The notes under the pieces were generated by a model. The model saw nothing but the letters and a program-made list of their open reading frames with translations, was not told the DNA's origin and made no database searches. The position numbers and the translations under genes are program-made. From the NCBI RefSeq assembly GCF_000472285.1, contig NZ_KI421415.1, forward strand, positions 125,269 to 174,571: a stretch of 49,303 bases of DNA. The letters are read 5' to 3'. This document shows, piece after piece, positions 1,238-21,334 of the stretch; position 1 is the first letter of the stretch; the number at the start of each line of letters is the position of its first letter. This DNA is from Desulfuromonas sp. TF. Lineage in GTDB: Bacteria; Desulfobacterota; Desulfuromonadia; Desulfuromonadales; ATBO01.

Positions 1238-2956
1238 TCACTCCTCCCCGAAGGGAAGGGTCTCCGCCAGTTCCTCGTCCGAGAGGTCAAAACAGCCACC
1301 GACCGATTCCAGAACCTCCGTGTACATGAACTCCGGCAGGCGATCGTCCTTGGCGGTAAAGCCGGCCGCCTTGTTGAACTGCTTCTCGAGCGTCAGCGAC
1401 TGCACTCCGAGCCCCATCAGACGATTCACGTCCCAATCGCCGCCGAACTTGGCCGCCGCCATATCGACCAGATGCCCGAGAGCTTCCGGATCCTCGCAGC
1501 AGATTCCGGAGAAGATGCACATGCCCAGCGAATCGAACACGGTCATCACGATTTGCAGATTTCTCGAAAGCTCCACCTGACCGTCCTTGTTCGTTCCGCC
1601 CAGGGAGTGGTCGCCGATGGAGTTTCCAGCTGTATGGTCGGCCCCCATGGGGCTCGTCGCATAGGTGACGCCGGTGCCCTTCAGGCCCCGGGGATCATAG
1701 GCCGCCATGGACTGCCCCTTCACCGTGGGGATCCGCTTTACTCCGAGGTGGCGGCCGGTAGCTTCGGTGCCGTTGCCGAGCACCCGCCCCAGTTCCGTCC
1801 CTTCGATCATCTGCCGGGCCAGGAGCAAGGCGCCTTCGGCATCGCCGAACTCGATCACCCCTGCTTCCATGCACAGGGCGAGCGCACAACCGGTGTCCAT
1901 GGTGTCGACTCCGAGGTCGTCGCAGAGCTTGTCCAGGGAGGCGATGACGTCGATGTCCCGGATGCCGCAATTGGACCCGAACAGCCCGATGGTCTCGTAC
2001 TCGAACCCCGAGGTCAGGTAATTGCCGTCCCTGTCGTTATACACCTGGGAGCACCGGATCAGGCAGCCGTGATGGCAGATATGGGACATCTTTCCGCCCC
2101 TCTGCGCCTGCAGCTCGGCGATCCGCTCTCCGCTGATCTCCTCGGCATGCTCAAAGCGCCCCCGGCTGAAATTGTGGGTCGGCAGGATGCCCATCTCATT
2201 CGTCACGTTCACCAGAAGGGCGGTCCCCAGGGCCGGAAGGCCCTGCCCCGAAAAGGGATGCGCCATGACGGCTTTGCCGAAGGCCCTGTTGGCGGAAACG
2301 AATTTCTCCTTGTCCGCATACTCCCAACCTGTTTTTTTCACGTCCTTGAAGACGATGGCTTTCACCCCCTTGGAACCCATCAGGGCGCCGAGTCCGCCGC
2401 GGGCGGCGGACCGGGAAGGGTGTCCGTCGAGATCGGTGAACTGGACGGAGGAGTTCAGGTATCCCCGCTCTCCGCCCAGGCCGATCGAGGCAATGGAAAT
2501 ATCGCTTCCCATGTCCTTTCTCAGCTCTTCCCCAAGCCGATAGTTGTTCATCCCGAGGTAAGGCTGGGCCGACACGAACTCGACCCCCGAGGCGTCCACC
2601 ACCAGCACAAACCACTCGCCTTTTTGCGGCTGGCCTTCCAGAACCAGACCGCGCAGATCGAGGGCGGCCATCCTTTTTGCCATGGTGCCGCCGGAATTGG
2701 CCTCCTTGATCGTCCGGGTCAACGGGCTTTTACCTCCCACGGAGATCCGGCCGGAGCAGGGAGCCACGGTGTCGGCAAACAGACCGGGACAGAGAATGAG
2801 CTTGTTTCCGGGACCCAGCGGGTCGGCCTTGGCATCGACCTCCTGGTGGAGGATTGTGGCGATAAGGCTGCGTCCCCCGACGAGCGGATATTTCTCGTCA
2901 GCGGCTTCGCATGAAGTTGTCTGGCTCTCCATGTTGATACGCAAGAGCTTTTTCAT
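1238..2956 (-). CDS. aldehyde:ferredoxin oxidoreductase family (tungsten-pterin)
   Basis: The 572-residue product has the AOR family plan: an N-terminal domain with the GRISVGGKSPLT segment, a conserved SRSAARGGLGALMGSKGVKA stretch near residue 181, cysteines at 294, 298 and 302, and a later cysteine in SLGMCIF. These cysteines would hold a [4Fe-4S] cluster beside a tungstopterin that oxidises aldehydes to acids with ferredoxin. The first cluster motif reads CX3CX3C, not the CX2CX3C of the Pyrococcus enzyme. There is no signal peptide, so it is cytoplasmic. The ATG at 2954-2956 has GAAAGG upstream. Its place after the amine dehydrogenase operon suggests it removes the aldehyde product; that is inference. 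The exact substrate cannot be read from sequence. Confidence 0.92.
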   Translation of the reverse strand: MKKLLRINMESQTTSCEAADEKYPLVGGRSLIATILHQEVDAKADPLGPGNKLILCPGLFADTVAPCSGRISVGGKSPLTRTIKEANSGGTMAKRMAALDLRGLVLEGQPQKGEWFVLVVDASGVEFVSAQPYLGMNNYRLGEELRKDMGSDISIASIGLGGERGYLNSSVQFTDLDGHPSRSAARGGLGALMGSKGVKAIVFKDVKKTGWEYADKEKFVSANRAFGKAVMAHPFSGQGLPALGTALLVNVTNEMGILPTHNFSRGRFEHAEEISGERIAELQAQRGGKMSHICHHGCLIRCSQVYNDRDGNYLTSGFEYETIGLFGSNCGIRDIDVIASLDKLCDDLGVDTMDTGCALALCMEAGVIEFGDAEGALLLARQMIEGTELGRVLGNGTEATGRHLGVKRIPTVKGQSMAAYDPRGLKGTGVTYATSPMGADHTAGNSIGDHSLGGTNKDGQVELSRNLQIVMTVFDSLGMCIFSGICCEDPEALGHLVDMAAAKFGGDWDVNRLMGLGVQSLTLEKQFNKAAGFTAKDDRLPEFMYTEVLESVGGCFDLSDEELAETLPFGEE

Positions 2957-2990
2957 TTCTTTGCCTTTCTTCCTGCAGGGCACAGCCAAG

Positions 2991-3218: not shown

Positions 3219-4601
3219 TTAGAAAGAGTAATTCAACCAGATTTGGGCAAAGTAAGTGTCCTGGTCGTCGCCGAAAATTTCCTCAGCCGCATCTCCCGGT
3301 TTGGACCAGCCCGTGCCAAGATGAACGAACAGGTGATCGTTCAGCGGGGCATCGACAAACAGATTCACCTCGTCGGCCCATTCGTCCGAAGAAGTCGGAA
3401 CAAAGAGCCAATAGTTCTCGTCGAGTTTGTGATTGAGGTACATGAGCGTCACGAATACCGCCTCGGCGGGGCTGAAACCGACCTCGGCCACGGCGACCTT
3501 CTTGTTGGAGTTGGGCAAATGCAGCTCTCCGGCAATTTCACCGATGACGAACCGGTTCCAGGCTGAGAATCCGCTGAACATCGGATCGTAATCAGAGGCT
3601 TCGTCGTCGGCCGGGTCGTCATCCCCCGAGAAGTAGAAATAGGAGCCGCGGACCCAGGGGGCGTAAGCGACGGGCAGGTTGTAGGTCGCGCTGGCGAAGC
3701 CGCCGAAAGCGTCCCGATCCCGGTCCTGGCCGGCGAGTACGCCCGCGTCGCCGGTCTGGTAGACGCCCTCGCCCTCCAGGAGCAGGCCTCCTATTCCCAG
3801 ATGAACACCGAGGTCCCATGCGGTGGTGTCGTTGTCCGCCACCAGTCCTGGACCCAGATAGAAATTGTCATCGGTCGCACGGCTGCCGTCGTCGATCTTT
3901 TGATGAACACCGGCGAAAACATAGCTGGTTTCGCTGAAATTGTACTGACCTTGAAGTCCGGCCACTTCGACGTCTTCCACCGGCCCGAACAGGGCGGTCT
4001 CATCAAGCTTCTGGAAATAGTTGTCCGAACGGGCCCAGTAGAGGGTCGTGGTCAGATCCCCGAAGTTGCCGTCCAACCGGGCGGCAAAGGGGAAGCTGTC
4101 GTGGAAGTTGAGCCAGAGAGCCTGATCCTGACCTTCGCCGTCGGCCACGACCAGCCAGTTTCCAAGCCGGATATCCTGGCGCCCGACGGTCAGGTCGAAG
4201 GGGCCGCCGTATATCTCGCTGAACTTGAGCCAGGCCTGGTCGACGCTGACGTCGCTCTGGTCCTTGGCAATCCCGTAGACGTCCTGGTCGATGGTCTGGG
4301 TATACAGGGGGGCGAATTGCCCTGAGGCCTTGGCCCAGCCCATATCCTTTTCCGCCGTCAGCCGGAACACCCCGAAAATTTCGCCGAAACCCGTCGAGTC
4401 TTTGTCCGAAGACCCCACCGGTGCACCATAATAGGGGTCGCTGTCGTACCGGTAAAAGACGTGGAGGTTCATCCCCAATGACACCTTATCCAGGACATTG
4501 CCCAGTTCCTTGATTTCGACATCCGCATGGACCGGACCGGTTTGAATCGTCACCCCCAATACCAATAATAAACACCATACAACTTTTTTCATACTTCTCA
4601 T
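3219..4601 (-). CDS. outer-membrane porin, alginate-export/phosphoporin-like
   Basis: The 460-residue product has a signal peptide (residues 1-26, ending GPVHA) and alternating aromatic and polar beta-strand pattern throughout. It ends with a terminal phenylalanine (WLNYSF), the usual signal for outer-membrane insertion. Segments such as DLTVGRQDIRLGN resemble the alginate-export porin family. The ATG at 4599-4601 is preceded by GGAGG; two further methionines (4601 and 4592) are in frame. Coming directly after the qhp genes, it may admit amine substrate. That role is inferred from position only. Confidence 0.8.
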   Translation of the reverse strand: MRSMKKVVWCLLLVLGVTIQTGPVHADVEIKELGNVLDKVSLGMNLHVFYRYDSDPYYGAPVGSSDKDSTGFGEIFGVFRLTAEKDMGWAKASGQFAPLYTQTIDQDVYGIAKDQSDVSVDQAWLKFSEIYGGPFDLTVGRQDIRLGNWLVVADGEGQDQALWLNFHDSFPFAARLDGNFGDLTTTLYWARSDNYFQKLDETALFGPVEDVEVAGLQGQYNFSETSYVFAGVHQKIDDGSRATDDNFYLGPGLVADNDTTAWDLGVHLGIGGLLLEGEGVYQTGDAGVLAGQDRDRDAFGGFASATYNLPVAYAPWVRGSYFYFSGDDDPADDEASDYDPMFSGFSAWNRFVIGEIAGELHLPNSNKKVAVAEVGFSPAEAVFVTLMYLNHKLDENYWLFVPTSSDEWADEVNLFVDAPLNDHLFVHLGTGWSKPGDAAEEIFGDDQDTYFAQIWLNYSF

Positions 4602-4650
4602 TTTCTGCCTCCGCTTCCAAAAAGTGTTAATCCAGATTCCCCCCAAAACT

Positions 4651-4709: not shown

Positions 4710-5393
4710 TTAAAACCTCCCGTGTACCGTATTGATGGTTGATCCGGTCTCCATTTTGAGTGCTAAATCGAGGGTGACCCGGGCGCAGGCAAAGGAATTG
4801 CCCCAGAGATTGGCCCCGGGCGGCAGCCCATCGAGGTCTCGCGGCCACCCTGATGCTTCATGGGAATAGGGTTTTCCCGGGTTGACGGTAATTTCCCCCG
4901 GTTTAAGATGGTCAGCGGCTACCACTCCGGTCACCCCGGGCAGGGAGGCCGGGAGCAACCCCGCCTTCCCCGGATGGCCGGCCGCCACCAGGACGGATCC
5001 GGCTTCCTGAACAGCCCGGCAGGCTTCCGCGAGAACTTCGCCTCCCGGGCCGGGAGACATCCCCAGGCTGAGGTTGATGATCCGGCACCCCTCGGCGGCC
5101 GCTCTCAGCAACGCCCGGGCCACCAGGGAGGGGTAGGAATCCAGGGTCTCGTCAAAGACCCGAACGACGAAAAGCTCCGCATCGGGCAGACCCTGGCGCA
5201 GGATTCCCGCTACTGCCGTGCCATGGCCGACAAGGTCCCGAAAATCCTCATCCTCCCGTATCCTTCCTCCTGCATCCAGGAAGATGCGCATTCCGCTGAC
5301 CGCCCCTCGGACATGGGAATGCCAGGGATTCACTCCGGTGTCTACGATGCCGATGCGAAGGGGTTCGGGGGCTGAAGTAAGAAGCGGCTTCAT
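4710..5393 (-). CDS. qhpE: subtilisin-like protease, QhpE-type leader peptidase
   Basis: The 227-residue product has the subtilisin triad: Asp18 in GIVDTGVN, His57 in VGHGTAVAG and Ser200 in GNSFACA. It has no signal peptide or propeptide, so it acts in the cytoplasm. In known qhp systems QhpE removes the leader of the cross-linked QhpC. The usual oxyanion-hole asparagine (AAGN) is replaced by histidine in VAAGHPG, and the nucleophile motif reads GNS, not GTS. The ATG overlaps the stop of the ABC transporter gene (ATGA), so translation is coupled. Function is assigned from family plus operon context. Confidence 0.85.
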   Translation of the reverse strand: MKPLLTSAPEPLRIGIVDTGVNPWHSHVRGAVSGMRIFLDAGGRIREDEDFRDLVGHGTAVAGILRQGLPDAELFVVRVFDETLDSYPSLVARALLRAAAEGCRIINLSLGMSPGPGGEVLAEACRAVQEAGSVLVAAGHPGKAGLLPASLPGVTGVVAADHLKPGEITVNPGKPYSHEASGWPRDLDGLPPGANLWGNSFACARVTLDLALKMETGSTINTVHGRF

Positions 5394-7153
5394 GCGGAAC
5401 GCCTTTCCGATTGGAGGACCGATTGCGCCGTCGCGGGGAACGACGGATCATCGCCCCCGGGTTCGGATTCCGGTCCCGTTCCCAGGGCGACCTGGAGTTC
5501 TTTCTCCCCGACCTTGCGCAACTGTCCGTCACGCAGGAGATAGAGGTGATCATAGGCCTCCAGTCCTCCCAGGCGGTGCGTAATGGACAGGATGATCCGG
5601 CCCTCAAACGCCTCCCAGAAATTCCGCCGCACCAGAGCCTCGGTTTCAGGGTCCAGGGCCGAGAAGGCTTCGTCCAGCACGAGGATCTCCGGATTCCTCA
5701 AGGCGAGGCGGGCCAGCCCGATCCGCTGTCTCTGCCCGTCGGAAAGGGACTGCCCACGGCCGCCGATGACGGTGGCGTAACCCTCCGGCAAGTCGAGGAT
5801 GAAGGCATGGGCTTCGGCAAGACGGGCCGCTTCGATCATTTCCTGATGTGTGACGTCCGGGTTGCCGTAGCGCAGGTTCTCCTCCACCGTTGCGTGCAGG
5901 AGAAAAGGCTCGGCGCCGGCGTACCCCAGGTCCCCTGCCGCAGCAGCAACATTCGAGCCGAGCTCCGCGCCACCCAGGAAAAGTCTTCCTTCCTGCGGGG
6001 TGCGCAAACCGAACAGAATCTGCACCAGGGTGGATTTGCCGGCTCCGGAGGTCCCGAATATGCCCACTCTCTCTCCAGGGGAGACCCGCAAGTTCAGGCG
6101 CCGCAGCACCGGCGGATTTCCCGGGTAGGTGAAGCTGACTCCATCGACAGCCAGCTCTCCGCTGCCCATGGCTGCTTCGGCGACTGTGGCATCGAGAGTG
6201 CTTTCGCCGGCCAGCACCTCGGAAATCCTCGACAGGCTCACCCGAGCTTCCTGGAAACTGCGCACCATCCCCAACAGCCCTCGCGCCGGTCCGTAGAGCC
6301 GCCCCTGGTAAAGGATGAAGGCGACGAAGGTTCCCAGACCGATCTCGCCTGACTCCAGCAGCCTCCCCCCGAGAAGGTAGATCCAGGCAAGGCTCGCGGT
6401 CAGGGCCAGACCGGGCGCCCCCGAAGCGACGGAATCGAGGACCTGGAACCGCAGCATCTTGCGGACCATGCCGGCGTTCAGCAGGGAGAAGCGTTTTTGT
6501 TCCTCCTTTTGCGAGGCATGCAGGCGCACGGCTCGCAAGGCGCTCATCCGCTCCGAGAGAAAGTGAGACAGGTCGGCCATGGCTTCACGAAGGCCATGGG
6601 TGCCCTTTTCGATCGGATTGCGAAAGGCGGTCGTGATCACCAGGGCCACCGCGAGTCCCAGAAAGGACCACAGGGCCAGAGGCGAGGAGAGATTGAGCAG
6701 AATCACGGCGGCAACGATCAGGAACAGAACGTTCTGCAGGAAGCCGAGCACACCGTCAACGAGAAGAGCCTGTATTTTGGGAACATCGGCGCCGAAGCGG
6801 TGCAGGAGGTCGCCCTGGCGGAACCGCTCGAGTGACTCCAGGGGGGAGTTCAGACAGTGGGCAAAGAGCCTCTCCCGGATGGAGACGAGAACGTCGGCGG
6901 AGAGCCGGGCGTGGACCAGGCGCGTCACCGCTCCCAGGATAAGATCGAGTACGGCTAGGCCGACCAGCGCAGCTGCGATCTTCGGAACGACGGCATAGTC
7001 CCCCCTTTCGGCGACGGCGTCGATGAAGGTCTTCCCGATCAGCGGCGGCGCCAGAGAGACGGCTCCTCCGGCCAGTCCGAGGAAGAACATGGCCGTGATG
7101 AGCCGGCCCTTCCCTTTGAGATGCCTTGCGAACAGCCCCACCGAGGTCAGCAT
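5390..7153 (-). CDS. qhpF: ABC exporter, fused permease-ATPase, QhpF-type
   Basis: The 587-residue product has about six N-terminal membrane segments and a C-terminal ATPase. Visible are Walker A GTSGAGKST, Walker B ILVLDEAFSALDPE and the H-loop SITHR. The signature reads LSDGQ, not the usual LSGGQ. In qhp operons this transporter is thought to carry the cross-linked QhpC, which has no signal peptide, to the periplasm. The ATG at 7151-7153 follows AGGAGG and overlaps the previous gene; its own stop overlaps qhpE. A general lipid or drug exporter is possible from sequence alone, but the context supports QhpF. Confidence 0.85.
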   Translation of the reverse strand: MLTSVGLFARHLKGKGRLITAMFFLGLAGGAVSLAPPLIGKTFIDAVAERGDYAVVPKIAAALVGLAVLDLILGAVTRLVHARLSADVLVSIRERLFAHCLNSPLESLERFRQGDLLHRFGADVPKIQALLVDGVLGFLQNVLFLIVAAVILLNLSSPLALWSFLGLAVALVITTAFRNPIEKGTHGLREAMADLSHFLSERMSALRAVRLHASQKEEQKRFSLLNAGMVRKMLRFQVLDSVASGAPGLALTASLAWIYLLGGRLLESGEIGLGTFVAFILYQGRLYGPARGLLGMVRSFQEARVSLSRISEVLAGESTLDATVAEAAMGSGELAVDGVSFTYPGNPPVLRRLNLRVSPGERVGIFGTSGAGKSTLVQILFGLRTPQEGRLFLGGAELGSNVAAAAGDLGYAGAEPFLLHATVEENLRYGNPDVTHQEMIEAARLAEAHAFILDLPEGYATVIGGRGQSLSDGQRQRIGLARLALRNPEILVLDEAFSALDPETEALVRRNFWEAFEGRIILSITHRLGGLEAYDHLYLLRDGQLRKVGEKELQVALGTGPESEPGGDDPSFPATAQSVLQSERRSA

Positions 7154-8115
7154 GCCGCCTCCTTCCGCATCGGGCGGTGCCAGACGTCCGGGTAATAACA
7201 CAGATGCGCGCCCTCGCACATGGGGGCGGCCCCCCGCAGATCGACGACCGCCTGGCGGATCTCTTCCGGACCGCCTCCGTCACGGGCGATCTTCAGGGCC
7301 CTGGCGGCCAGTTCGACGGCTTTCTCCTTCCGCGGCAGGGACGCCTCGCGCCCCACCACCTTGAAGCTGGCGATCCCGATCTGCAGCAGGCGCGGCAGGG
7401 CGCACAGGCCGCAGGGTCCGACGGGATAGCCCCGGCTCGTCTGGCATCCGCAATGGTTCAAGGTCCATTTCCAGAAGGCATACCGCTCGAAGGTCTCGGG
7501 GTTCACCCCTTCAGTCCCTTCCCCGTCACCCAGGCAAAAGGTTCCGACGGCGTGGGTGGTGGCGCAGAGACCTTCCTCGAAGACGCAGCCGTCGTTCAGC
7601 AAAAAGGTCTCAAGCTCCAGGCCGGGGACGGAAATCTCTTCGATCTCGCCCAGGGCAAGATGCCTGGGCAGGATGACCCGGGAGACCCCCAGATCCCGGA
7701 AAAAGGCCGCTGAACCCGGGTTGTTGCAGGTGGCTAGGCTGGAGACGTGAAGCCTGGAGGCGGCGCCGGCTTCGGCCAGGGCCAGCAGCAGGTCCATATC
7801 GGCCACGATCAGGGCGGATGCCCCTTTTTCCAGCAGCAGGACGCCAAACTCTGCGAGCATCTCCACCGCCCCGGGAGGATACCAGGGGGCGTTTAGTGCG
7901 ACGTAGACCGGTCGCCCTGCGGACGAGTCCACCGCCACCTCGAAGTCGGCGACATCCGGCATGCCTGCCGAGGAGGGAGCGCGGCGGTTGGCCCAGGTCT
8001 GGCCGAAACACTTCTCCCAGTCGGGCGGCGTCAGCCCGCAGAAAAATTCATCGGCGCCTGCCTCCAGCAGTGGGATCGTTTCCGCTGAATTTTTTAAGGG
8101 CGCTAATATCTTCAC
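7147..8115 (-). CDS. U32-family protein within the qhp operon (candidate O2-independent hydroxylase subunit)
   Basis: The 322-residue product begins with the U32 TIM-barrel pattern (KILAPLKNS, then EAGADEFFCGL) and has ETFLLNDGC in the place of the U32 signature. It is cysteine rich: 177, 184, 194, 222, 224, 235 and 238 cluster where other U32 proteins bind [4Fe-4S]. U32 members with known chemistry (UbiU/UbiV, RlhA, TrhP) hydroxylate without O2; the old peptidase name is probably misleading. The GTG start (8113-8115) overlaps the stop of the next upstream U32 gene (GTGA), so the two are coupled and may form a heterodimer like UbiU/UbiV. The role in tryptophan hydroxylation of QhpC is my inference. 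Confidence 0.8.
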   Translation of the reverse strand: MKILAPLKNSAETIPLLEAGADEFFCGLTPPDWEKCFGQTWANRRAPSSAGMPDVADFEVAVDSSAGRPVYVALNAPWYPPGAVEMLAEFGVLLLEKGASALIVADMDLLLALAEAGAASRLHVSSLATCNNPGSAAFFRDLGVSRVILPRHLALGEIEEISVPGLELETFLLNDGCVFEEGLCATTHAVGTFCLGDGEGTEGVNPETFERYAFWKWTLNHCGCQTSRGYPVGPCGLCALPRLLQIGIASFKVVGREASLPRKEKAVELAARALKIARDGGGPEEIRQAVVDLRGAAPMCEGAHLCYYPDVWHRPMRKEAAC

Positions 8116-8939
8116 GGAGTCGGCCTTTCGTGGAGGACAATCCTGTCGCAGCGGGACAGGTGAGCCCCTGCCGAGACTTCGGAAACCTCGTAAAACAGAG
8201 TGTTGCCCGCCCTCCAGAGGGGCGTCGCGGTGTCCGGACGCTTCACGGGGAGGCAACGGTCCCGGCACAAGGCGGGGCAGCTCTTTCCAAGCCCTTTGGA
8301 GAAACTGTCCTCGGCATCCATCCCTTCGGCCTTGATCAGGCAATTGCGCCCCGAAACCGCAAAGGCGTAGGGAAGATGGATGGTTCGCTGGAGATCGGAG
8401 GCTTCGCTTTTCAGATAATTGCCCTCAAGGTCCGGATCGGTTTCGACGCCGACCACCCCGAAGCGCAGCAGGAGTGATCGCAGCCTGTCTCCCCGGTTCC
8501 GCCCCAAGGAACCCGGGGTCGGCGCTTCCCCCCGGGCCAGCCGGGGATCGCGGAGACCCCGATTGATCAACCGTCCGGCTCTTCGCTCGAAGAGGGGGTG
8601 GGAGTTTCGGAGCAGATCTAGAACCCCCCAGTCATTGAAGCTCACCGCCGGTGCGTATCCCCGCTGTCCGATCTCTGCCAGGAGCCGGTCAACCCGCTTG
8701 AGCCCCCCGGGAGTCACTATCGGGGTCATCAGCACGGCCTCGAATCCCGATTCTCGAGCCAGCTTGCAGAAGGATTCCGCCTCATCCGCGTCCGGCAGCA
8801 GGTCCTCGCAGAATTCGGTGCCGAAATAGAGAGCCTGAAGAGAACCCGGAGGAAGGGCGTCTTTCCACCGGGCCCGGCAGATGTCCCTGGGATCGGACGG
8901 CAGTTTTCCGGGGCGCGAAAGGCGTAAACCGTATTCCAT
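8112..8939 (-). CDS. divergent U32-like protein, UbiV-like cysteine pattern
   Basis: The 275-residue product looks like a TIM-barrel U32 relative. It has VLMTPIVTPGGL in the middle and ends with SGRNC, then a CPALCRDRC cluster. Cysteines 44, 200, 221 and 225 are placed much like the four [4Fe-4S] ligands I recall for UbiV (C39, C176, C193, C197). An in-frame TTG at 9006-9008 overlaps qhpB. I prefer the ATG at 8937-8939 because the extra 23 codons fall in a GC-rich hairpin region. The Shine-Dalgarno (GAAGAA) is weak. Family membership is less certain than for its neighbour. Confidence 0.65.
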   Translation of the reverse strand: MEYGLRLSRPGKLPSDPRDICRARWKDALPPGSLQALYFGTEFCEDLLPDADEAESFCKLARESGFEAVLMTPIVTPGGLKRVDRLLAEIGQRGYAPAVSFNDWGVLDLLRNSHPLFERRAGRLINRGLRDPRLARGEAPTPGSLGRNRGDRLRSLLLRFGVVGVETDPDLEGNYLKSEASDLQRTIHLPYAFAVSGRNCLIKAEGMDAEDSFSKGLGKSCPALCRDRCLPVKRPDTATPLWRAGNTLFYEVSEVSAGAHLSRCDRIVLHERPTP

Positions 8940-8965
8940 AAAGTGATTCTTCGAAAGAGGAGCGC

Positions 8966-8997
8966 GGGGTCCGGCCGTTGCCGGGCGCGGACCCCAC
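8966..8997 (-). terminator. GC-rich hairpin after qhpB
   Basis: GGGGTCC and GGACCCC arms plus an inner CCGG/CCGG pair form a bulged stem on the minus strand, between the qhpB stop and the U32 start. No long T-run follows, so it may be an mRNA-stabilising or partial stop element. Confidence 0.4.
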
Positions 8998-9004
8998 TGT
9001 TTGC

Positions 9005-10021
9005 TCAAAGTTTATGCCTGACCAGGGTCATGCCGTCGGTCTCCATGTTGATGACCTTGATGAATTCCATGGTCTCGGTATCGAAGACGGAGATGGTTGC
9101 GCTGCCCCCCGCATAAAGCTTTTTGCCGTCGCTGCTGGTCATCACACTGAAGCTGGTCCCTTCAGGGATGATCGCATGGTTGGTAATGGAATTGGTTTTC
9201 GCGTCGAGTTTGTATACCTCGTCCATGCCGCCGTAGATCTTGGAGCGATCCGGAGAATAGATCAAACTGTAGACAAAGGGCACGCCCCCCTGGACCATGC
9301 TCTGCTTGATCTCCCCATTGTGGGTATTGATCTCCAGCATGCCCAATCCTTCCATGTTGTAGTACGGGGAGAGGAAATACCCGTCGTTCTCATAGGTGTA
9401 ATGCCAGAGGGGGAAGATGTTCATCCCTTTTTCGAACATGGGATATACCTCTGCAATCTTCATCTGTTCACCGGAGACATCGATCTTGAAGAGATCCTGC
9501 CCGATGGCGTAAACTTCCTTGCCGCCCTTGACGAGAACGAGCTGGAAAATACCTCTGGGAACCTTAACGCTCCGCAGGATCTTCCCGCTTTCGAGGTCGA
9601 TCTGGGCGAGCATGGGCTCGGCGATGACGGCCTCCCCCCCTTCGGTGCGGCGGCCCACCAAATTGGCATAGATGGTTTTACCGTCACCGGCGGAGGTAAT
9701 CCCGAATTCGAACCGCTCCCAGCCGTCCTCGCCTTTGCTGATGTCGAGCGTCTTCAGCAGTTTCATATCCTTCATGTCGACGATATTCAGGTAACGGCGG
9801 CTGGCGGCGACCACCATCCGCCTGTCGTCCGGCAGGACGGTGTAGGCGCGGGTCCAGCCCTTGACCGGTATCCGGGCTTCGATCGTATCGTTCTCTCCAT
9901 TGATTACCTCGAGGACGTCGTAACCAAGGGAAAAGAGTCGATCCCTGGCCTGGGCCGGCCCGACAGGCGCCAGAAGACAGAACATCAAGGCTGTCAGAAT
10001 AAAATATTTTGTGTTTTTCAT
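9005..10021 (-). CDS. qhpB: quinohemoprotein amine dehydrogenase beta subunit
   Basis: The 338-residue product has a signal peptide (to about residue 25, GPAQA) followed by repeated beta-propeller (YVTN-like) blades such as DRRMVVAASRRYLNIVD and DGKKLYAGGSATISVFDTE. This matches the periplasmic beta subunit of quinohemoprotein amine dehydrogenase, a seven-bladed propeller that forms part of the active site next to the gamma subunit. The ATG has AGGAG six bases upstream. Its identity rests on the propeller pattern plus the unmistakable QhpC next to it. Confidence 0.9.
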   Translation of the reverse strand: MKNTKYFILTALMFCLLAPVGPAQARDRLFSLGYDVLEVINGENDTIEARIPVKGWTRAYTVLPDDRRMVVAASRRYLNIVDMKDMKLLKTLDISKGEDGWERFEFGITSAGDGKTIYANLVGRRTEGGEAVIAEPMLAQIDLESGKILRSVKVPRGIFQLVLVKGGKEVYAIGQDLFKIDVSGEQMKIAEVYPMFEKGMNIFPLWHYTYENDGYFLSPYYNMEGLGMLEINTHNGEIKQSMVQGGVPFVYSLIYSPDRSKIYGGMDEVYKLDAKTNSITNHAIIPEGTSFSVMTSSDGKKLYAGGSATISVFDTETMEFIKVINMETDGMTLVRHKL

Positions 10022-10078
10022 GTATTCTCCTATTGACTTAATTGGACATCGATATGTTCACTGCCCCAGCGGAGGAAC

Positions 10079-10417
10079 TCAGTCGTACTTGATCGTACGC
10101 CAGTCCCTGGCCATGTTCGAACAGACTTCATGGTATTCCGGGTTGTTGGTCAGCCCGTCGGGAGTCTGGGCCGGCCACCAGCAGTCGCCGGAGCACCCCA
10201 TGAAGTCGCGTACCGAGGCCTGACAGTTGCCTATCGGGTGGGTTCCGCGGGGATTAGTTTCCCAGCCGGTGTCGAAAATCGTCGTGCAACCGACCGGCAT
10301 GGCCAGTTCGGTGCCGCTCTCCAGAAGGGCTTCCACCTTTTTGCCTTCCCCTTTGGCCAACTCTTCCACGGCCTCTGCTTTCTTGTTCAGGGCCTTTATC
10401 CTCTGTTTTTTTTCCAT
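10079..10417 (-). CDS. qhpC: quinohemoprotein amine dehydrogenase gamma subunit (CTQ peptide precursor)
   Basis: The 112-residue precursor has a charged leader (about residues 1-37, rich in Lys and Glu) and a mature part with all cross-linking positions of the Paracoccus gamma subunit. The pairs are Cys44-Glu53, Cys65-Asp71 and Cys79-Asp87 (thioethers), and Cys75-Trp81, which becomes cysteine tryptophylquinone. The spacings 9, 6, 8 and 6 agree with those of the known protein (C7-E16, C27-D33, C41-D49, C37-W43). An extra Cys99 is unusual. There is no Sec signal, which fits export by QhpF after processing by QhpE. GGGAG precedes the ATG by five bases. Confidence 0.96.
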   Translation of the reverse strand: MEKKQRIKALNKKAEAVEELAKGEGKKVEALLESGTELAMPVGCTTIFDTGWETNPRGTHPIGNCQASVRDFMGCSGDCWWPAQTPDGLTNNPEYHEVCSNMARDWRTIKYD

Positions 10418-10466
10418 CTCGCTCCCTTTCGCTTAATTAATGAGCCACAATTATTTGAATGTCGGA

Positions 10467-11858
10467 TCAACAACCTGTTCTTTTCTCAAACTGTGCAAGC
10501 AGCTTGTCGGCCCCTGCGTGTCGCAGGTCGGCATAGAGTTCGATGCCGATCTGAAGCCAGCGCAGGATGAAGTTGCAGCTGCTCCCCGGAGGTATTCCCA
10601 GGGTGTTCTCCCTGAGGTGGTTTTCGTAATGACAGCCACCGGAGCAGAGAGTTCTGGCCCAGCACTTTTCACACATTTCGTCCTTTCCCGCCGTAACGTG
10701 GCCCAGGCAGGAGCGGATCTTTTCCGGATCGGGTCCGGTCTCCAGATTTCCCACCTCGAAGTCTTTCTCACCCGCCAGTCGATGGCAGAGGTAAAACTCT
10801 CCCCCGGCATCGACGGCCAGGTAGCCGTATCCCGCCCCGCAGGCGACGGCCTTGGTCTGCCCCATGTGCAGACGTCCGAGAAGTTCAATGAGATTGGCGA
10901 AGGGAAGAATCCTGCCCTCTCTGGCCGCTCTGGAGAAACGGCGGGCCATGGCGGCGAAGCTTTGCAGCAGCACGTCCTCCTGCTCCTGGTCGGGGAACAG
11001 GTCTTTACTGATGGGGCTCGCGGGGGCAATGCCGACTTCGTGGAAGCCAAGCCCCATCAGGTGGTCGAATACTTCTTCACATCGCGACCATTGATCAGGG
11101 GTCAACGTGACCCGAGCCGCAACCGCAGAGGTATTGTTCTCGAGAAGCGCCTGAACCTGGGGCAGGATCTTCGAGTAGCTTCCTTTGCCAGAGGCGTAGG
11201 GCCGGTTGGCATCATGCAGGTCGGGAGGGCCGTCGAGACTGACAGAGACAACGACCCGGTGGTCCCGAAAAAAGCTCACGATATCGGCGTTGAGCAGGGT
11301 GCCATTGGTTGTCAACGACACCAGAAGCCTTTTGCCCGCCGCAGAGGCCATTTTCTCCGCCTCCTCCACGGCGGCTTTTATCGCCGGCATGTTGAGCAGC
11401 GGCTCGCCGCCGAAGAGGACCAGGGTCAGGTCCTTGAGATCTCCCGATTCCTTGACCAGGTAACGGGCGGCTGCGCGTGCCGTCTCCGAGTCCAGAAGGC
11501 GTGACTGCCCTCCGTAGGAGCCGCCCTCTGCGTAACAGTAGGTGCAACGCAGATTGCAGTCCTGGGCCACTTCCAGCACCATGGTGCTCATGGGGAATTC
11601 CTCCGGGTCGAACCGGACGGGGGGCCACGATTTTGCGGAGCCCGCTGGTATCAGCAGGCGAATATCCCGCAACCCTTCCAGTACGTCGCGGTCGGATTCG
11701 GAGACTTTGCTCAGATCCACCGTGGGGTCGTTGCCCCAGCGGTTGATCACCTCCTGCACAGACGAGTCGATAAGGAACAGACTCGCATGATCGACCCCGT
11801 AGAGAATCGCCCCATCTTCCACTTCAAAAATGCGATGGTCGGCCCACTCGTGCGTCAT
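10467..11858 (-). CDS. qhpD: radical SAM/SPASM thioether-forming enzyme QhpD
   Basis: The 463-residue protein carries the radical SAM cluster motif C101-x3-C105-x2-C108 (DCNLRCTYCYAE) and a FGGEPLLN segment. A C-terminal SPASM cysteine array (LCHRL, then CEKCWARTLCSGGCHYE) would bind auxiliary [4Fe-4S] clusters. QhpD forms the Cys-to-Asp/Glu thioether bonds in QhpC before export. The gene sits between qhpA and qhpC and starts one base past the qhpA stop region, so translation is coupled. It is cytoplasmic. The overall match to known qhp order makes the identification strong. Confidence 0.94.
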   Translation of the reverse strand: MTHEWADHRIFEVEDGAILYGVDHASLFLIDSSVQEVINRWGNDPTVDLSKVSESDRDVLEGLRDIRLLIPAGSAKSWPPVRFDPEEFPMSTMVLEVAQDCNLRCTYCYAEGGSYGGQSRLLDSETARAAARYLVKESGDLKDLTLVLFGGEPLLNMPAIKAAVEEAEKMASAAGKRLLVSLTTNGTLLNADIVSFFRDHRVVVSVSLDGPPDLHDANRPYASGKGSYSKILPQVQALLENNTSAVAARVTLTPDQWSRCEEVFDHLMGLGFHEVGIAPASPISKDLFPDQEQEDVLLQSFAAMARRFSRAAREGRILPFANLIELLGRLHMGQTKAVACGAGYGYLAVDAGGEFYLCHRLAGEKDFEVGNLETGPDPEKIRSCLGHVTAGKDEMCEKCWARTLCSGGCHYENHLRENTLGIPPGSSCNFILRWLQIGIELYADLRHAGADKLLAQFEKRTGC

Positions 11859-11860
11859 GA

Positions 11861-13393
11861 TTACTTGACCCTTGGAACGTAGTCGGGCGGCACCACGGCC
11901 AAGTCGGCTTCGGCGGCATACTGGCGCCCGCCCCTTTCGTATTCAGCCTGGACTTTCACCAGCCCGGTGCCTTCGGTCTTGTACTCACGGGTGAGGATCC
12001 GCCCGTAGTCGCTCGTGGGGAAGTAGTTTCCGTTTTTCCCGATACCGCCGACCCAGGCAAGGTCGTCATCTCCCTCTCGGGTGACGTACTCGGTCAGCTT
12101 GAATTGGGCGGGAACAGGTCCGAGAAGCAGGTCTCCGGCGTAAGCGAAGGCTTCGAACTGGACCCCTTCTGCCGGGAAATGGACTCCACCGTGCACCCGG
12201 GCGCGCCCCAGTCCGGGAGTGACCTTGATATGGTCGATCTGGTCGGCCAGGGTTACGGGGACCGTATTGAGATTTTTCACCTCGAGGTTGGCCCGGGCAG
12301 CACCCGCACCCCGATAGGCGACTTTTGCTATGATGGTTTCTCCGTCACGCCTGGCTTCCAGTACTTCTACATTGCCGCCGTTGAATTTAAGGTCTGTGGC
12401 CTTGACTTGCGGGAGCTTCACCCCGTCCAGTGTCAGGGTCGTGGTCTCCCCGGCCAGAAGAAAGGAAGGCGTCACCTTGAGGACCCGGGCCGAACCGTCC
12501 GCGGGATACCAGGTGCTTGTCGAGGTGCGGAAATCGGGAGCGGGGAAGTGATGCTGGCCCTGAATGACCCCGTTGGTGAAGGCGTAGGCGCCCCGGGTCT
12601 CGAAACTGTTGTGCTGGGTCTTGGTGCGCAGGGCGTGTCCGCCGTACAGGACAGCCTCACCCTGGAAGCGCTCGCTCATCCCGTCGTGGAAGTTCAAGGT
12701 TCCCATAACGGTGTAGTCGCCGTTCTGATCCGCCTTGATCGAAGCGTAACCGCGATAGTCGCCTTTGCCCGGCTCATTGCCCAGAATAATCCAGGAGCCG
12801 GCGAGATTTGCCTTGGGAGCCTCCCAAGCCTTGCCGTAGGGATGACTCTTGGCCAGGGAAGCCAGCATCTTGCCGGCTTCATCGTACCATTTCATTTCGC
12901 GCATCTGGCCGTCGATCGCCGGGTCCATGTAATAGTGGAAGTCGCGGATCTTCGCCCAGGCTGACTCGGTCATGCGATAGGAATAGATCTTGCCGGCGCT
13001 GTGGCACCGGACGCAGGTGGCGAAGAGTTGCCCCTCTTCGTCGCTCTGAGGCGCCTCAACTGTCTGGGGGTTGTTGTTCAGGTTCAGGTACGAGACCTTC
13101 TCCAACTCCTCGGGAGAGAGGATCTGCGTTTCACAGATTTCCTTCAGGAGAGCATCCCTCTCGCCCTCCTTCAGCTCCATCCCGTGCAGCCGAGCCATGC
13201 GGTCGATGACGACGCCCCACTCATCGGGAGTGGCGCGGATCTCTTCAACCCTTGCCATTTTTCCTTCCTGGACTGCGTGGCACCCGGAGCACTTCTCCAT
13301 TGTCAGGGAATCCTTGCCGAATGCCATTGCACCCGTGGCGAGGGCTCCCATCGACACAAGCAACGTGATCAAAGCAATAACCGTTTTGCGCAT
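11861..13393 (-). CDS. qhpA: quinohemoprotein amine dehydrogenase alpha subunit, diheme
   Basis: The 510-residue product has a signal peptide (residues 1-24, GAMA) and two c-type heme sites, CSGCH (35-39) and CVRCH (127-131). Three beta-rich domains follow. This is the plan of the diheme alpha subunit of quinohemoprotein amine dehydrogenase, which passes electrons from CTQ to external cytochromes. It is the first gene of the operon. AGGAGG precedes the ATG at 13391-13393; an earlier in-frame ATG lacks a signal sequence directly behind it. Cytochrome maturation and the electron acceptor are not encoded nearby. Confidence 0.94.
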   Translation of the reverse strand: MRKTVIALITLLVSMGALATGAMAFGKDSLTMEKCSGCHAVQEGKMARVEEIRATPDEWGVVIDRMARLHGMELKEGERDALLKEICETQILSPEELEKVSYLNLNNNPQTVEAPQSDEEGQLFATCVRCHSAGKIYSYRMTESAWAKIRDFHYYMDPAIDGQMREMKWYDEAGKMLASLAKSHPYGKAWEAPKANLAGSWIILGNEPGKGDYRGYASIKADQNGDYTVMGTLNFHDGMSERFQGEAVLYGGHALRTKTQHNSFETRGAYAFTNGVIQGQHHFPAPDFRTSTSTWYPADGSARVLKVTPSFLLAGETTTLTLDGVKLPQVKATDLKFNGGNVEVLEARRDGETIIAKVAYRGAGAARANLEVKNLNTVPVTLADQIDHIKVTPGLGRARVHGGVHFPAEGVQFEAFAYAGDLLLGPVPAQFKLTEYVTREGDDDLAWVGGIGKNGNYFPTSDYGRILTREYKTEGTGLVKVQAEYERGGRQYAAEADLAVVPPDYVPRVK

Positions 13394-13529
13394 AAACTTG
13401 CTCCTCCTGTTTGTTGTTCGTTTCCCATCCTTTGCCATGACTTCTCCTTTTTTTTCAATAAAATGAATTCTTATCCGCTCCTTGCGTCAGGACAAAATAA
13501 ACGTACGGAACACACGCCAATCAACAACT

Positions 13530-13923: not shown

Positions 13924-13941
13924 TGGGACTAAAATGTCTCA
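13924..13941. promoter_or_regulatory. 18-bp palindrome 3, overlapping the regulator stop codon
   Basis: TGGGACT, aaaa, TGTCTCA. Its right half contains the TGA stop of the response regulator gene (13939-13941). It shares seven-base half-sites with the two copies near qhpA. Confidence 0.55.
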
Positions 13942-15327
13942 GTTGTTTCGATAGTGAGAGGGGTCGAGTTCGAGTTTCTGCAAAAGACGGTGAAGGTGGC
14001 GCCGATTCAGGTCTGCGTGTTCGGCTACTCGCGTAATGTTTCCCTGATAGTATTGCATCAGTTTCTGAAAATATTCGAGCCCCGCTTCCTCTAGCACGGA
14101 CTCCTTGAGATCGGCGTAATTGCCCGGGGGCAGATCCGGCGCCGATCCGGTTCGCACATGGGGGGGAAGGAGTTTCACGTCCAGGATTTCCTGTTTGTGA
14201 AAGGTCATGATTTGCTCGAGCAGGTGGACCAGTTCACGGATGTTGCCGGGCCAGGGATAATGCCGCAAGATATCCATGGCCTCGGGAGTCACCCTTTTGA
14301 CGTTGCGATTCAGCTTTCGATTCAGCCGATCCAGAAAATGGCGGACCAGCAACGGGATATCTTCCGGTCTTTCTCCCAGGGGAGGAATCTGTATTTCGAT
14401 CACCTTGAGCCGGTAGTAGAGGTCCTCTCGGAACGTGCCTTCCTTCACCTCTTTTTCGAGGTTTCTGTTGGTCGCCGCCACCACCCGCGCGTCGGTCGAT
14501 CGGCTCCGGGTCTCTCCCACCCGCGCAAACGTCTTTTCCTGGAGGACCCGCAACAGTTTTTTCTGCAGGATCAGTGGCATCTCGCCGATCTCATCGAGAA
14601 ATACCGTGCCGTCGGAAGCCGCCTCGAAATATCCGGCCCGATCCTGATGGGCGCCGGTGAAGGCCCCTTTTGCGTGGCCGAACAACTCGCTCTCCAGGAG
14701 GGAGTCCGGAATGGAGGCGCAATCGACGGTCACGAGTGGTTTTTCCTTGCGTGAGCCGGAGGCGTGTATGGCCCGTGCGACAAGTTCCTTGCCGGTTCCG
14801 CTTTCGCCGGTAACCAGCACGGTGGAGTCTGTATCCGCTACAGCCGATACAGACTCGATGACCTTGCGGATCAGTGTGCTCTTGCCGACGATACCTTCGA
14901 ATTCAGCCTTGCGGCCCGTGGTTTCCGCCAGGAGCCGGTATCGTTGCCTCTGGCCCCTGTGGTCCAGAGCCCTTTGCAGAGTCAATTCGATTTTATCCAG
15001 GTCAAAGGGCTTCTCCAGAAAATCGTAGGCGCCCTCCCGTACCGCCTGTACCGCCGTCTCTATGGTGCCGTGGGCGGAAAGGAGCAGAACAGGCAGTTCA
15101 GGCTGCACCTGAAGCGCGCGCCGCAACAATTCCAGCCCGTCCATCCCGGGCATTTTGAGATCGAATATCGCTGCATCTGGACCCCAGGAGCTGATATACG
15201 CCAGCCCCTGCTCCGATTCACACTGGCCCACCGCGTCGTAACCCATCGATTTAAGGGCCTGGACGAGTGCCGAGAGGAGAGCCTGGTCGTCGTCGACAAC
15301 TAAAATTCGAGGTTCGCTCACGGTCAT
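13939..15327 (-). CDS. NtrC-family sigma54-dependent response regulator
   Basis: The 462-residue protein has an N-terminal receiver domain (Asp pair in VVDDD, phospho-acceptor Asp56 in FDLKMPGMDG). The central AAA+ domain has Walker A GESGTGKE, the GAFTGA loop that touches sigma54, and Walker B VFLDEIGE. The C-terminal helix-turn-helix lies around VAEHADLNRRHLHRLLQKL. It should activate a sigma54 promoter when phosphorylated by the kinase whose gene overlaps it (ATGA). The most likely target is the qhp operon directly downstream, given the three palindromes in the gap. It replaces the AraC-type QhpR found in pseudomonads. Confidence 0.92.
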   Translation of the reverse strand: MTVSEPRILVVDDDQALLSALVQALKSMGYDAVGQCESEQGLAYISSWGPDAAIFDLKMPGMDGLELLRRALQVQPELPVLLLSAHGTIETAVQAVREGAYDFLEKPFDLDKIELTLQRALDHRGQRQRYRLLAETTGRKAEFEGIVGKSTLIRKVIESVSAVADTDSTVLVTGESGTGKELVARAIHASGSRKEKPLVTVDCASIPDSLLESELFGHAKGAFTGAHQDRAGYFEAASDGTVFLDEIGEMPLILQKKLLRVLQEKTFARVGETRSRSTDARVVAATNRNLEKEVKEGTFREDLYYRLKVIEIQIPPLGERPEDIPLLVRHFLDRLNRKLNRNVKRVTPEAMDILRHYPWPGNIRELVHLLEQIMTFHKQEILDVKLLPPHVRTGSAPDLPPGNYADLKESVLEEAGLEYFQKLMQYYQGNITRVAEHADLNRRHLHRLLQKLELDPSHYRNN

Positions 15328-17459
15328 TCCGCCTCTCCTTCAGGAATCAGCACGCGGAAGCGACAACCCCGGGGGCTGAGATTCTGCACCTCGATCTTGC
15401 CGGAATGCCCCTCGACGATGCTGTTCACGACCGCAAGTCCGAGCCCGGTCCCTTTACCCACCTCCTTGGTGGTAAAAAAGGGATCGAAAACATGGGGCAG
15501 CACCTCTTCCGAAATGCCCGGCCCCTCGTCCTCGACATCGAGGATGAACAGGGAAACCTCACCCCGGGCAAAAACATACCTCGTACGCACCCGAACCACC
15601 CCTCCCCTGCCCTGGGCTGCAATGGCATTCCCCAGAAGGTTCCATAACACCTGCTTGATGCCGGATTGGTCGAGATTGAACTCCCGTGGATTCTCATCCA
15701 GGAAAAGTTGCAGATCAACCCCGTGGGCCCGCGCTTCATGACCGACCATTTCAACGACATCGTACACCAGGGCATTCGGGTTCAACCGGGTTTTTACGAC
15801 GCTCTGAAGCCGGGAGAGGTCCAGAAGGTTACGCAGTTTTTCCTGAATCCTGGCGATCTCCGCCATCACCTTCTTCAGGCTGTCGGAGGCCCCGTCGGGA
15901 AGGTCGGGGCGACGCAGCAGCAGCTGGGTATAGGTTGAAATGGTCGCGAGCGGGTTGTTGACTTCGTGAGCAACCCCGGAGGCCAGACGCCCGACGGCCT
16001 TGAGTTTGCGTCCCTGTTCAACTTCGGCATACACTCTCTTAAGCTCGGATTTTTTCTCTCGAAGGCTCTCTGCCATGGAGTTGAGGGCCTGCGCCAGCTG
16101 CCCGAACTCCCCGCCTTCAACAGGCATTCTGCGGGAAAGGTTTCCGGCGCCGAAATCCTGTATCCCTCCCAGGAGGGTGCGAAGGCCCCGGGACTGGTGC
16201 GCCACCACCACATATCCGAGGCCAGCTACCGCGAGTATGGCGAAAACCAGGAGATGTACGAAATTGCCCCGGATTCGCTCAGCCTCTGAAAAAATGGCTT
16301 GAGCCTTCTCGTTCGCAGGGCCCAGGAGGTCGCTTTCAGGAACAAGGAGAAGAAGCCGCCATCCGAGGGGCTCCAGTTCGGCATATCCGACGAAAGCTCT
16401 CAAGTCTTCGGTTTCTATGAACTCTACGCCTGTTTTCTCCGATCTTGGCCTCATTGCGGCCTTTCCTGTTTCCGAAAGGTTATCCAGATCCAGAGTCTCC
16501 CCGGAAGACGAGGAGGGAGGTTCCAGGCCAAGGGCGGCAAAGGGAATATTTTTTGAGAACGCGAGAATTTCGCCCCTCGATAGAAGCAGCGAACTGGACC
16601 CCTCACTCAGATGGACCTGGCTTATCTCCTGGATAAGGGTCTCGACAGTGATGTCCACCCCGACGGTGGCCAGGTGCTCGCCTTCCACGAAGACCGGTGA
16701 GAGGCAGGAAATCATGTTGTGGCGGCTCAACGGATCGGTATAAACCTGGGTGAAAACCTCCTTTCCGGAGGGATTGTGATCAGGATCTGCAAGATAGTAG
16801 AAAGGCCAGGAGGTGACCTCCGGGTACTTTGGAAAATGCTGGAAGTCGCGCCAGGGGTATGTGCGGCTGATTCGGTCCTTATGGATGAACCATCCAAGGA
16901 CCACTCTCGGGTCCAGGTCCACCAGGGGCTTCAGGATGGTATCCAGGCTTTCTGTTGCGGCAATCAATGAATCCAGGGACGAACTGTACCCGGGCACGTA
17001 GAGATCCGAATTTTCAATATCGGCATTCTCCATGGCGGGAATCAGGGAATCCAGAGAGAAAGGGCGTCTGGGGACATACAGACTTGAATTCCCGTCATCG
17101 ACGGGATTGATGTAATCCCCCCCTTCATCCAACCGGTACCGGCTGCCGTTTCTGTACATAAAACGGGACGGATCTTCAAAGATGGCCCGGGACAAGGAAC
17201 TCAGCAAATGAACCTCATCCCTGATATTGGAGAATTCAGTGGATATCTTTTCCGCTTTTTGAGCCAAATGATTCTTCAGAAATTCGACTTGGGAAGTTAT
17301 CAGGGCGCTCCGGGCCTCCTGGAGTGAAACCTCCTTGATCGTGCGCAGGTGACGAAAGCTGAGATGGGAGATCAGCCCGATGGGCGCGAGGAAAAGAACC
17401 ATGGCGCACAGGGAGAGTTTGAAAACAAGCCGTTTTTTACTCCAGAATTCTAAAACCAT
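15324..17459 (-). CDS. sensor histidine kinase with periplasmic Cache-like domain
   Basis: The 711-residue protein has a first membrane segment (about 13-35), a large periplasmic region (about 40-395) with Cache-like features, and a second membrane segment (about 401-420). HAMP follows, then HisKA with His498 in SGVAHEVNNPLA, and an ATPase domain with NLLGNA, DEGPGI and GKGTGLGL. It probably senses a periplasmic ligand, perhaps an amine or aldehyde, and phosphorylates the overlapping NtrC-type regulator. The sensor contains two copies of a 21-residue segment with a period of 26 residues (see the repeat entry). The ligand cannot be deduced. Confidence 0.9.
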   Translation of the reverse strand: MVLEFWSKKRLVFKLSLCAMVLFLAPIGLISHLSFRHLRTIKEVSLQEARSALITSQVEFLKNHLAQKAEKISTEFSNIRDEVHLLSSLSRAIFEDPSRFMYRNGSRYRLDEGGDYINPVDDGNSSLYVPRRPFSLDSLIPAMENADIENSDLYVPGYSSSLDSLIAATESLDTILKPLVDLDPRVVLGWFIHKDRISRTYPWRDFQHFPKYPEVTSWPFYYLADPDHNPSGKEVFTQVYTDPLSRHNMISCLSPVFVEGEHLATVGVDITVETLIQEISQVHLSEGSSSLLLSRGEILAFSKNIPFAALGLEPPSSSSGETLDLDNLSETGKAAMRPRSEKTGVEFIETEDLRAFVGYAELEPLGWRLLLLVPESDLLGPANEKAQAIFSEAERIRGNFVHLLVFAILAVAGLGYVVVAHQSRGLRTLLGGIQDFGAGNLSRRMPVEGGEFGQLAQALNSMAESLREKKSELKRVYAEVEQGRKLKAVGRLASGVAHEVNNPLATISTYTQLLLRRPDLPDGASDSLKKVMAEIARIQEKLRNLLDLSRLQSVVKTRLNPNALVYDVVEMVGHEARAHGVDLQLFLDENPREFNLDQSGIKQVLWNLLGNAIAAQGRGGVVRVRTRYVFARGEVSLFILDVEDEGPGISEEVLPHVFDPFFTTKEVGKGTGLGLAVVNSIVEGHSGKIEVQNLSPRGCRFRVLIPEGEAE
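16950..17090 (-). repeat. internal duplication in the kinase sensor domain
   Basis: Residues 124-144 (NSSLYVP ... SLDSLIPAME) and 150-170 (NSDLYVP ... SLDSLIAATE) agree at about 14 of 21 positions. The units correspond to 17028-17090 and 16950-17012. It is an in-frame duplication of 78 bases that has since diverged. Confidence 0.8.
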
Positions 17460-20108: not shown

Positions 20109-20149
20109 AATCACCATTCCAGATTCTTCACTTCAACCAGGAGCCCAGC

Positions 20150-21310: not shown

Positions 21311-21334
21311 TCCCGAGCTGAATCTGCTGATGAA

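Follow-up and report, generated by a model that had tools for sequence, protein, structure and literature searches.

A UbiU/UbiV-like pair of U32-type proteins in place of QhpG in qhp operons: a probable oxygen-independent step in cysteine tryptophylquinone formation

The operon and its genes

The window analysed here is the whole of a 49,303-nucleotide stretch of the genome of Desulfuromonas sp. TF (contig NZ_KI421415.1, positions 125,269 to 174,571). On its minus strand, from 13438 to 4710, open reading frames (ORFs) and profile searches delimit a compact operon with the gene order qhpA-qhpD-qhpC-qhpB-U32b-U32a-qhpF-qhpE (Table 1). The alpha, beta and gamma subunits and the proteins QhpD, QhpE and QhpF are all present, which makes it a qhp operon, i.e. 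one for an amine dehydrogenase of the cysteine tryptophylquinone (CTQ) type. This work concerns two adjacent genes in it, one UbiU-like (U32a) and one UbiV-like (U32b), for which comparison of sequences gives good support that they replace the flavin monooxygenase QhpG. The two genes share 4 bp, an overlap also seen between QhpF and QhpE, and the pair thus sits within a tight operon.

Among the five qhp proteins with an NCBI model (A, B, C, D and E), QhpC alone passes the equivalog cut-off and the others score below it, as expected of a divergent branch. QhpA keeps both CXXCH heme motifs (residues 50 and 142) and QhpD has a CNLRCTYC motif at residue 101. Judging by their families, QhpD would be the maker of the Cys-Asp/Glu thioether links and QhpF the exporter of QhpC; the true start of qhpF may be later than 7219. 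A preliminary description of the window had listed the six qhp genes in this order, and ORFs and profiles agree with it. It had placed the start of qhpA at a later Met (13393) than the ORF start at 13438, and its range of 7147-13393 left qhpE and most of qhpF outside. It also spoke of two overlapping U32-type genes: the overlap and the PF01136 membership of U32a are borne out, whereas U32b, having no Pfam or NCBIfam match at E≤0.001, is assigned to the U32 type from its UbiV profile match, its cysteines and its predicted fold.

Table 1. Genes of the qhp operon and accessory genes downstream of it, in window coordinates.
Gene	Coordinates	Strand	Assignment	Evidence
qhpA	11861..13438	-	di-heme alpha subunit, quinohemoprotein amine dehydrogenase	PF09098/PF14930/PF09100; TIGR03908 (QH_alpha) 257.9 bits
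qhpD	10467..11858	-	radical SAM/SPASM maturase	TIGR03906 (quino_hemo_SAM) 345.7 bits
qhpC	10079..10417	-	gamma subunit precursor	NF037958 (QH_gamma) 116 bits; PDB 1jju_C, 1jmx_G; residue table
qhpB	9005..10021	-	beta subunit	TIGR03907 (QH_beta) 77.7 bits
U32b	8112..8939	-	UbiV-like pair member	hhalign against UbiV; cysteines; predicted fold 5d88
U32a	7147..8115	-	UbiU-like pair member	PF01136 91 bits; hhalign against UbiU; cysteines; predicted fold 5d88
qhpF	5390..7219	-	ABC exporter	PF00664 + PF00005; position as in other qhp operons
qhpE	4710..5393	-	subtilisin-like leader protease	NF049966 (QH_SP) 131.7 bits
porin-like gene	3219..4646	-	outer-membrane porin-like, downstream of operon, accessory	PF13372 47.1 bits
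aldehyde:ferredoxin oxidoreductase	1238..2989	-	downstream of operon, accessory	PF01314/PF02730

The substrate tryptophan is kept and QhpG is missing

The QhpC of the window has both CTQ residues, Cys75 and Trp81, and the three thioether pairs (44/53, 65/71 and 79/87). The CTQ tryptophan is kept in all of 95 QhpC sequences and the CTQ cysteine in 94, and the thioether residues are kept throughout save for one gapped position in L081 (loci are numbered with L and genomes with G). Hence, two oxygen atoms are still needed on the QhpC tryptophan. In the QhpC at ~5710 of L029 (genome G434), Thr replaces the CTQ cysteine, and the tryptophan and thioether residues are kept; this protein perhaps carries a tryptophylquinone without the link to cysteine.

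According to the accessible text of PMC7876137, QhpG is a flavin enzyme that places both oxygen atoms in the QhpC tryptophan and acts only when QhpD is present. We took as reference the Leisingera protein L101:5708-7063, which scores 167 bits to PDB 7ctq, and built a QhpG profile of 459 positions from six sequences. True QhpG proteins score 278-644 bits on it. The best match in the 4.4-Mb host genome (completeness 100%, contamination 2.2%) reaches 38.7 bits over positions 9-131. A search of the whole genome with Trp_halogenase, a family that the QhpG of Leisingera does match, found nothing. FAD_binding_3 has 12 matches, the best with 53 bits over the first half of the family, and it also matches in all 14 control genomes. 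The absence of QhpG that had been noted in the 49 kb thus extends to the genome: a qhpG elsewhere in it, which would have spoken against a replacement, was searched for and not found.

The U32 pair and QhpG exclude each other

Scanning named genomes with the QhpC alignment gave at least 579 loci, of which we analysed the best 77, a set leaning towards relatives of the window. The U32b-U32a pair was found in records named Desulfuromonadales, Geobacter (including the isolate G. argillaceus), Desulforhabdus, Desulfobacterales and Deferrisomatales, and likewise in records named Nitrospinota, Terriglobia, Burkholderiales and Gammaproteobacteria; a Poribacteria record has U32b at a contig end. QhpG is carried by Leisingera, Tropicimonas, Methyloversatilis and others. 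Some record titles may be wrong, e.g. the "Klebsiella" bin L110 has a QhpD placed among Binatia. Since the operon arrangement recurs in many distant genomes, it is not due to chance.

We searched 61 qhpC genomes whole, 49 of them reached through named loci and 12 taken directly as genomes. U32b without QhpG was found in 52, QhpG without U32b in seven, neither in two and both in none. Weak matches to the QhpG profile (E≤0.001) occur in 60 of the 61, with a maximum of 92.5 bits in the U32b genomes against at least 378 in the seven QhpG genomes. The classes of L098 and of Leisingera were then sampled regardless of QhpG or U32b content. QhpC occurred in 2/369 and 7/385 genomes, respectively, two of which had already been counted; the seven new ones comprise five with QhpG only, one with U32b only and one with neither. 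Altogether, 53 of the 68 qhpC genomes searched whole have U32b only, 12 have QhpG only, three have neither and none has both (Fisher p = 6e-11, kinship ignored). The preliminary description had called for this comparison: U32b is found in 0/12 QhpG genomes, and its idea that the pair replaces QhpG draws support from this exclusion and from the switches described below. In G864 the operon stretch holds neither QhpG nor the pair, the pair lies ~32 kb away, and no QhpG match reaches E≤1e-20 anywhere in the genome. We also considered a U32a match at Leisingera L105 as a genome with both systems, and rejected it, the L105 protein grouping with UbiU.

How often the two types were exchanged was read from QhpD trees. 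The first set had 83 rows, after dropping one-genome duplicates and QhpD stretches below 300 bits (L083 is thus missing). The maximum-likelihood tree used for tests had 79, leaving out also L133 and L134 (duplicates) and L029 and L082 (long branches). A single clade of U32-type operons is rejected (approximately unbiased test, p = 3e-5), and the tree demands at least three changes between U32 and QhpG. For example, L109 is sister to the QhpG-bearing L098 and L114 (Shimodaira-Hasegawa-like approximate likelihood ratio test 99) and has its U32 pair downstream of qhpE, where these two carry qhpG, albeit at a different distance. L106, L108, L109 and L136 have U32 genes that group as a single clade in the U32b tree as well as in the U32a tree; therefore, the pair either dates far back in this group and was repeatedly replaced by QhpG, or moved between operons. 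Under a midpoint root, the root itself not being inferred, the U32 type looks older.

The genome G174 (8.9 Mb) has two structural qhpACB sets and one maturation cluster, which may serve both enzymes. The structural sets, L022 and L023, lie in stretches without a qhpD, qhpE, QhpG or U32 match (L023 on an 8-kb contig, L022 with only a weak ABC-ATPase match). The separate cluster, L131, reads qhpD-U32b-U32a-qhpF-qhpE. Hence, the pair goes with the maturation enzymes.

Properties of the U32 pair

U32a belongs to PF01136 (Peptidase_U32; 91 bits, cut-off 22.4), its matches to UbiU (56.6 bits) and TrhP (47.7 bits) both being weak. Profile comparison with hhalign aligns it with UbiU over 291 columns (probability 99.8%, E = 3e-30). 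U32b aligns with UbiV over 91 N-terminal columns (89%), Cys44 falling on UbiV C39, and far less well with UbiU (26%). As it matches no Pfam profile, we call it UbiV-like and not a Pfam U32 member.

UbiV and UbiU form a heterodimer in which four cysteines of each protein bind a 4Fe-4S cluster, with the ligand motifs CXnCX12CX3C in UbiV and CX6CX16CX38C in UbiU, as described in the accessible text of PMC6747719. In U32b, Cys44, Cys200, Cys221 and Cys225 are kept in 51/51 sequences and are likely 4Fe-4S ligands. Their pattern is C44-Xn-C200-X20-C221-X3-C225, so that the UbiV-like placement proposed for them at the outset holds for the order but not for the spacing (X20 instead of X12). U32a has seven cysteines invariant in 47/47 sequences (177, 184, 194, 235, 238, 300 and 306), of which the first three align with the first three UbiU ligands.

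AlphaFold models have a predicted local distance difference test score (pLDDT) of 89.7 for U32b and 83.5 for U32a. The U32 protein 5d88 is the sole PDB chain matching the U32b model at E≤0.001, its Z score of 12.9 tying with the 12.6 of CutC; it is also the best match of the U32a model, but there 171 chains pass the same threshold. When the sequences of U32a and U32b were searched against the PDB, no E value fell below 0.27. In the trees, the five UbiV rows and the five UbiU rows each form a clade of their own, and the window pair lies outside both. U32b and UbiV are separated by long branches in the U32b tree, and U32a falls outside the group holding UbiU, RlhA and TrhP in the U32a tree, which came with long-branch warnings.

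U32b-like proteins also occur in the host's phylum in genomes without QhpC. The U32b profile score alone was thus rejected as proof of qhp specificity: QhpC is absent from 29 of the 38 phylum genomes with a match, and matches in some of these reach the score of the weakest full-length qhp-linked protein (219 against 215.6 bits). One such protein, on a 3.1-kb contig of G098, which is of the genus of G174, scores 259 bits. The non-qhp U32b proteins fall among the qhp-linked ones in the U32b tree, their placement there being unresolved, and their U32a partners go with UbiU in the U32a tree. The qhp pair thus belongs to a larger collection of U32-like proteins that occur in pairs. In two genomes without QhpC (L146:4577-8197 and L148:4967-8395), U32b-U32a directly follows a lipB-like and a radical SAM (lipA-like) gene and precedes a dnaJ-like gene; this pair may perform a hydroxylation linked to the lipoate genes. 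A further U32 protein, divergent and scoring 44.6 bits on PF01136, is encoded in the window itself. It stands in a row of genes at 19527-23769 (+), after a YceI-like gene and a type III polyketide synthase and before a UbiE-like methyltransferase; this row may provide an alkylquinone without O2, the U32 protein serving as another hydroxylase.

Hosts and neighbouring genes

An aldehyde:ferredoxin oxidoreductase, an enzyme class that is O2-sensitive, adjoins 17/55 U32-type, 0/20 QhpG-type and 1/13 unlabelled loci, kinship not being removed; two of the 55 (L056 and L132) come from one genome, and 17 are short stretches. In the window, it likely takes up the aldehyde product. When we speak of anaerobes, we rely on these neighbours and on host names, e.g. 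Geobacter argillaceus and Desulforhabdus, which are anaerobes.

Upstream of qhpA, at 13939-17459 (-), lie an NtrC-like regulator and a sensor-kinase-like gene, named from their translations, and relatives of these genes are found near several other U32-type operons. A sigma-54 promoter upstream of qhpA was considered and dropped, the pattern matching 15 times in the window against 18 expected by chance. In Desulforhabdus sp. TSK, ~2.6 kb upstream of the qhp operon (L076:3119-4173), there is a repeated peptide like a translated array of clustered regularly interspaced short palindromic repeats (CRISPR).

Discussion

We showed that a qhp operon with an intact substrate tryptophan has two U32-type genes and no QhpG, and that this exchange recurs among genomes. 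It is quite probable that the two U32 proteins work together as a hydroxylase dedicated to CTQ biogenesis, in place of QhpG. The gene replacement, the cysteine conservation and the kept CTQ residues come from sequence comparison, and from these we infer a heterodimer, its clusters, an oxygen donor and the dihydroxylation. In the scheme that we propose, QhpD would first install the thioether links in QhpC in the cytoplasm. U32a and U32b, probably a UbiU/UbiV-like heterodimer with one 4Fe-4S cluster per half, would bind the QhpC-QhpD complex as QhpG does and, without using O2, add two oxygens at C7 and C6 of Trp81 (Trp43 in mature QhpC). Prephenate would be the most likely oxygen donor or co-substrate, to judge from the analogous enzymes RlhA and TrhP; the accessible text of PMC6599085 has hydroxylation by both enzymes requiring prephenate and leaves its donor role open. 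Electrons must leave for each oxygen coming from water or prephenate, and the clusters could carry them. QhpE would then cut the leader, QhpF would export the protein, and the di-heme QhpA may complete the oxidation to CTQ in the periplasm. The steps other than those of the U32 pair follow the proposal made for the known qhp system, as far as it is set out in the accessible text of PMC7876137.

One might object that the pair matures CTQ in some other way, by passing electrons to QhpD, helping with the thioethers or handling the leader, and that the tryptophan is oxidised by another enzyme or by the di-heme subunit. The family is named for peptidases, and the split cluster, with the pair beside qhpD, qhpE and qhpF, would fit any maturation role. 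Yet, the pair exchanges with QhpG and not with QhpD, QhpE or QhpF, which stay beside it, and UbiU, UbiV, RlhA and TrhP are all tied to hydroxylation in what is accessible of PMC6747719 and PMC6599085. We thus regard such a role as improbable. Still less probable is that the U32-type QhpC is differently modified, e.g. with a singly hydroxylated or otherwise changed tryptophan, in an enzyme that is not of the CTQ type. The threonine in the U32-type QhpC of L029 (G434) fits this idea, but Cys37 and Trp43 are found in 51/52 and 52/52 labelled U32-type QhpC, as they both are in 20/20 of the QhpG type, and the window QhpA retains both heme motifs. Finally, the pair might be a passenger with an unrelated metabolic role, the tryptophan being oxidised autocatalytically or by an unlinked O2-dependent enzyme, as the genomes with U32b-like genes and no QhpC could suggest; but this is very improbable given that a U32b match is found in all nine QhpC-bearing genomes of the phylum (truncated at a contig end in one), that pair and QhpG are mutually exclusive over several phyla, and that the hosts include the anaerobes Geobacter argillaceus and Desulforhabdus.

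Several observations nevertheless weigh against a dedicated hydroxylase pair replacing QhpG, or limit its reach. U32b-like proteins are present in 29/395 phylum genomes lacking QhpC, and in some of these they are paired with U32a next to lipB-lipA; the pair type is therefore not peculiar to CTQ. Independent pairs in the comparison are only three, all opposite ways, which is too few for significance (sign test, p = 0.25). U32b matches neither a Pfam nor an NCBIfam family at E≤0.001, and its match to UbiV is limited to the first third of the protein. In U32a, the fourth UbiU ligand aligns with Cys222, which is kept in 43/47 sequences while Cys235 and Cys238 are invariant, and this makes the ligand set unsure; moreover, its AlphaFold model is unreliable (low pLDDT) at 178-196, the site of two proposed ligands. 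Three of the 68 genomes have neither U32b nor QhpG: G505 has a short qhpB and no qhpE nearby, G522 has no qhpD in view, and in G1213 the operon is on a 5.4-kb contig. By their titles, 66 of the 77 named loci come from metagenome bins. Lastly, some U32-type hosts may use O2; since U32-type operons occur in records named Burkholderiales and Gammaproteobacteria, the term anaerobe may be too narrow.

The system combines features of several known ones. With the qhp operons carrying QhpG (peptidyl tryptophan dihydroxylase, PDB 7ctq), it shares qhpA, B, C, D, E and F, the QhpC crosslink residues, the CTQ tryptophan and thus the step to be performed, but here the U32 pair is present and QhpG is absent from operon and genome. 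With UbiU-UbiV, which serve O2-independent ubiquinone synthesis, it shares two adjacent U32-type genes and an O2-free pair in place of an O2-using enzyme, U32a matching UbiU over most of its length and U32b having the N-terminal motif and cysteine order of UbiV. It differs from them in its presumed substrate, a peptide tryptophan instead of a lipid, in an operon lacking a UbiT-like gene, in the order of the genes (V-like, then U-like), in cysteine spacings and in extra invariant cysteines in U32a. RlhA and TrhP have in common with it the U32 domain, hydroxylation and the link to prephenate, but they act on RNA (rRNA and tRNA, respectively), and U32a falls outside their tree group. MauG, LodB and GoxB likewise oxygenate a tryptophan of a protein to make a quinone cofactor, but they are heme or flavin proteins starting from mono-hydroxylated tryptophan; in the systems described in the accessible text of PMC7876137, the quinone-forming tryptophan is oxygenated by QhpG, MauG, LodB or GoxB, or autocatalytically. 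In the literature searched, in part as titles and abstract openings and with most subscription journals outside it, nothing was found on U32 genes within qhp operons, and no paper brings U32 together with quinohemoprotein amine dehydrogenase, or oxygen independence with tryptophylquinone. CTQ operons and U32 hydroxylase pairs have each been described before. What appears to be new is to find them combined, with a protein as the substrate of U32 enzymes.

One might speculate further that CTQ was first made with a UbiU/UbiV-type, O2-independent dihydroxylase of protein tryptophan and that QhpG took over later in aerobic lineages. We regard this as possible but less likely than not. Tryptophylquinone enzymes would then have no dependence on oxygen, and paired U32 proteins would amount to a general hydroxylase module, exchangeable and O2-free, for lipids, RNA, proteins and other substrates. 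If the pair hydroxylates QhpC without O2, anaerobes would be able to turn a side chain of a protein into a quinone cofactor, and proteins would join lipids and RNA among the substrates of U32 hydroxylases. For the unsettled chemistry of these enzymes there would be a small substrate, made by the ribosome, whose fate can be tracked by mass, and an O2-free route would become available for engineering tryptophan-quinone catalysts. It would also explain why amine dehydrogenase genes are found in sulfate and metal reducers.

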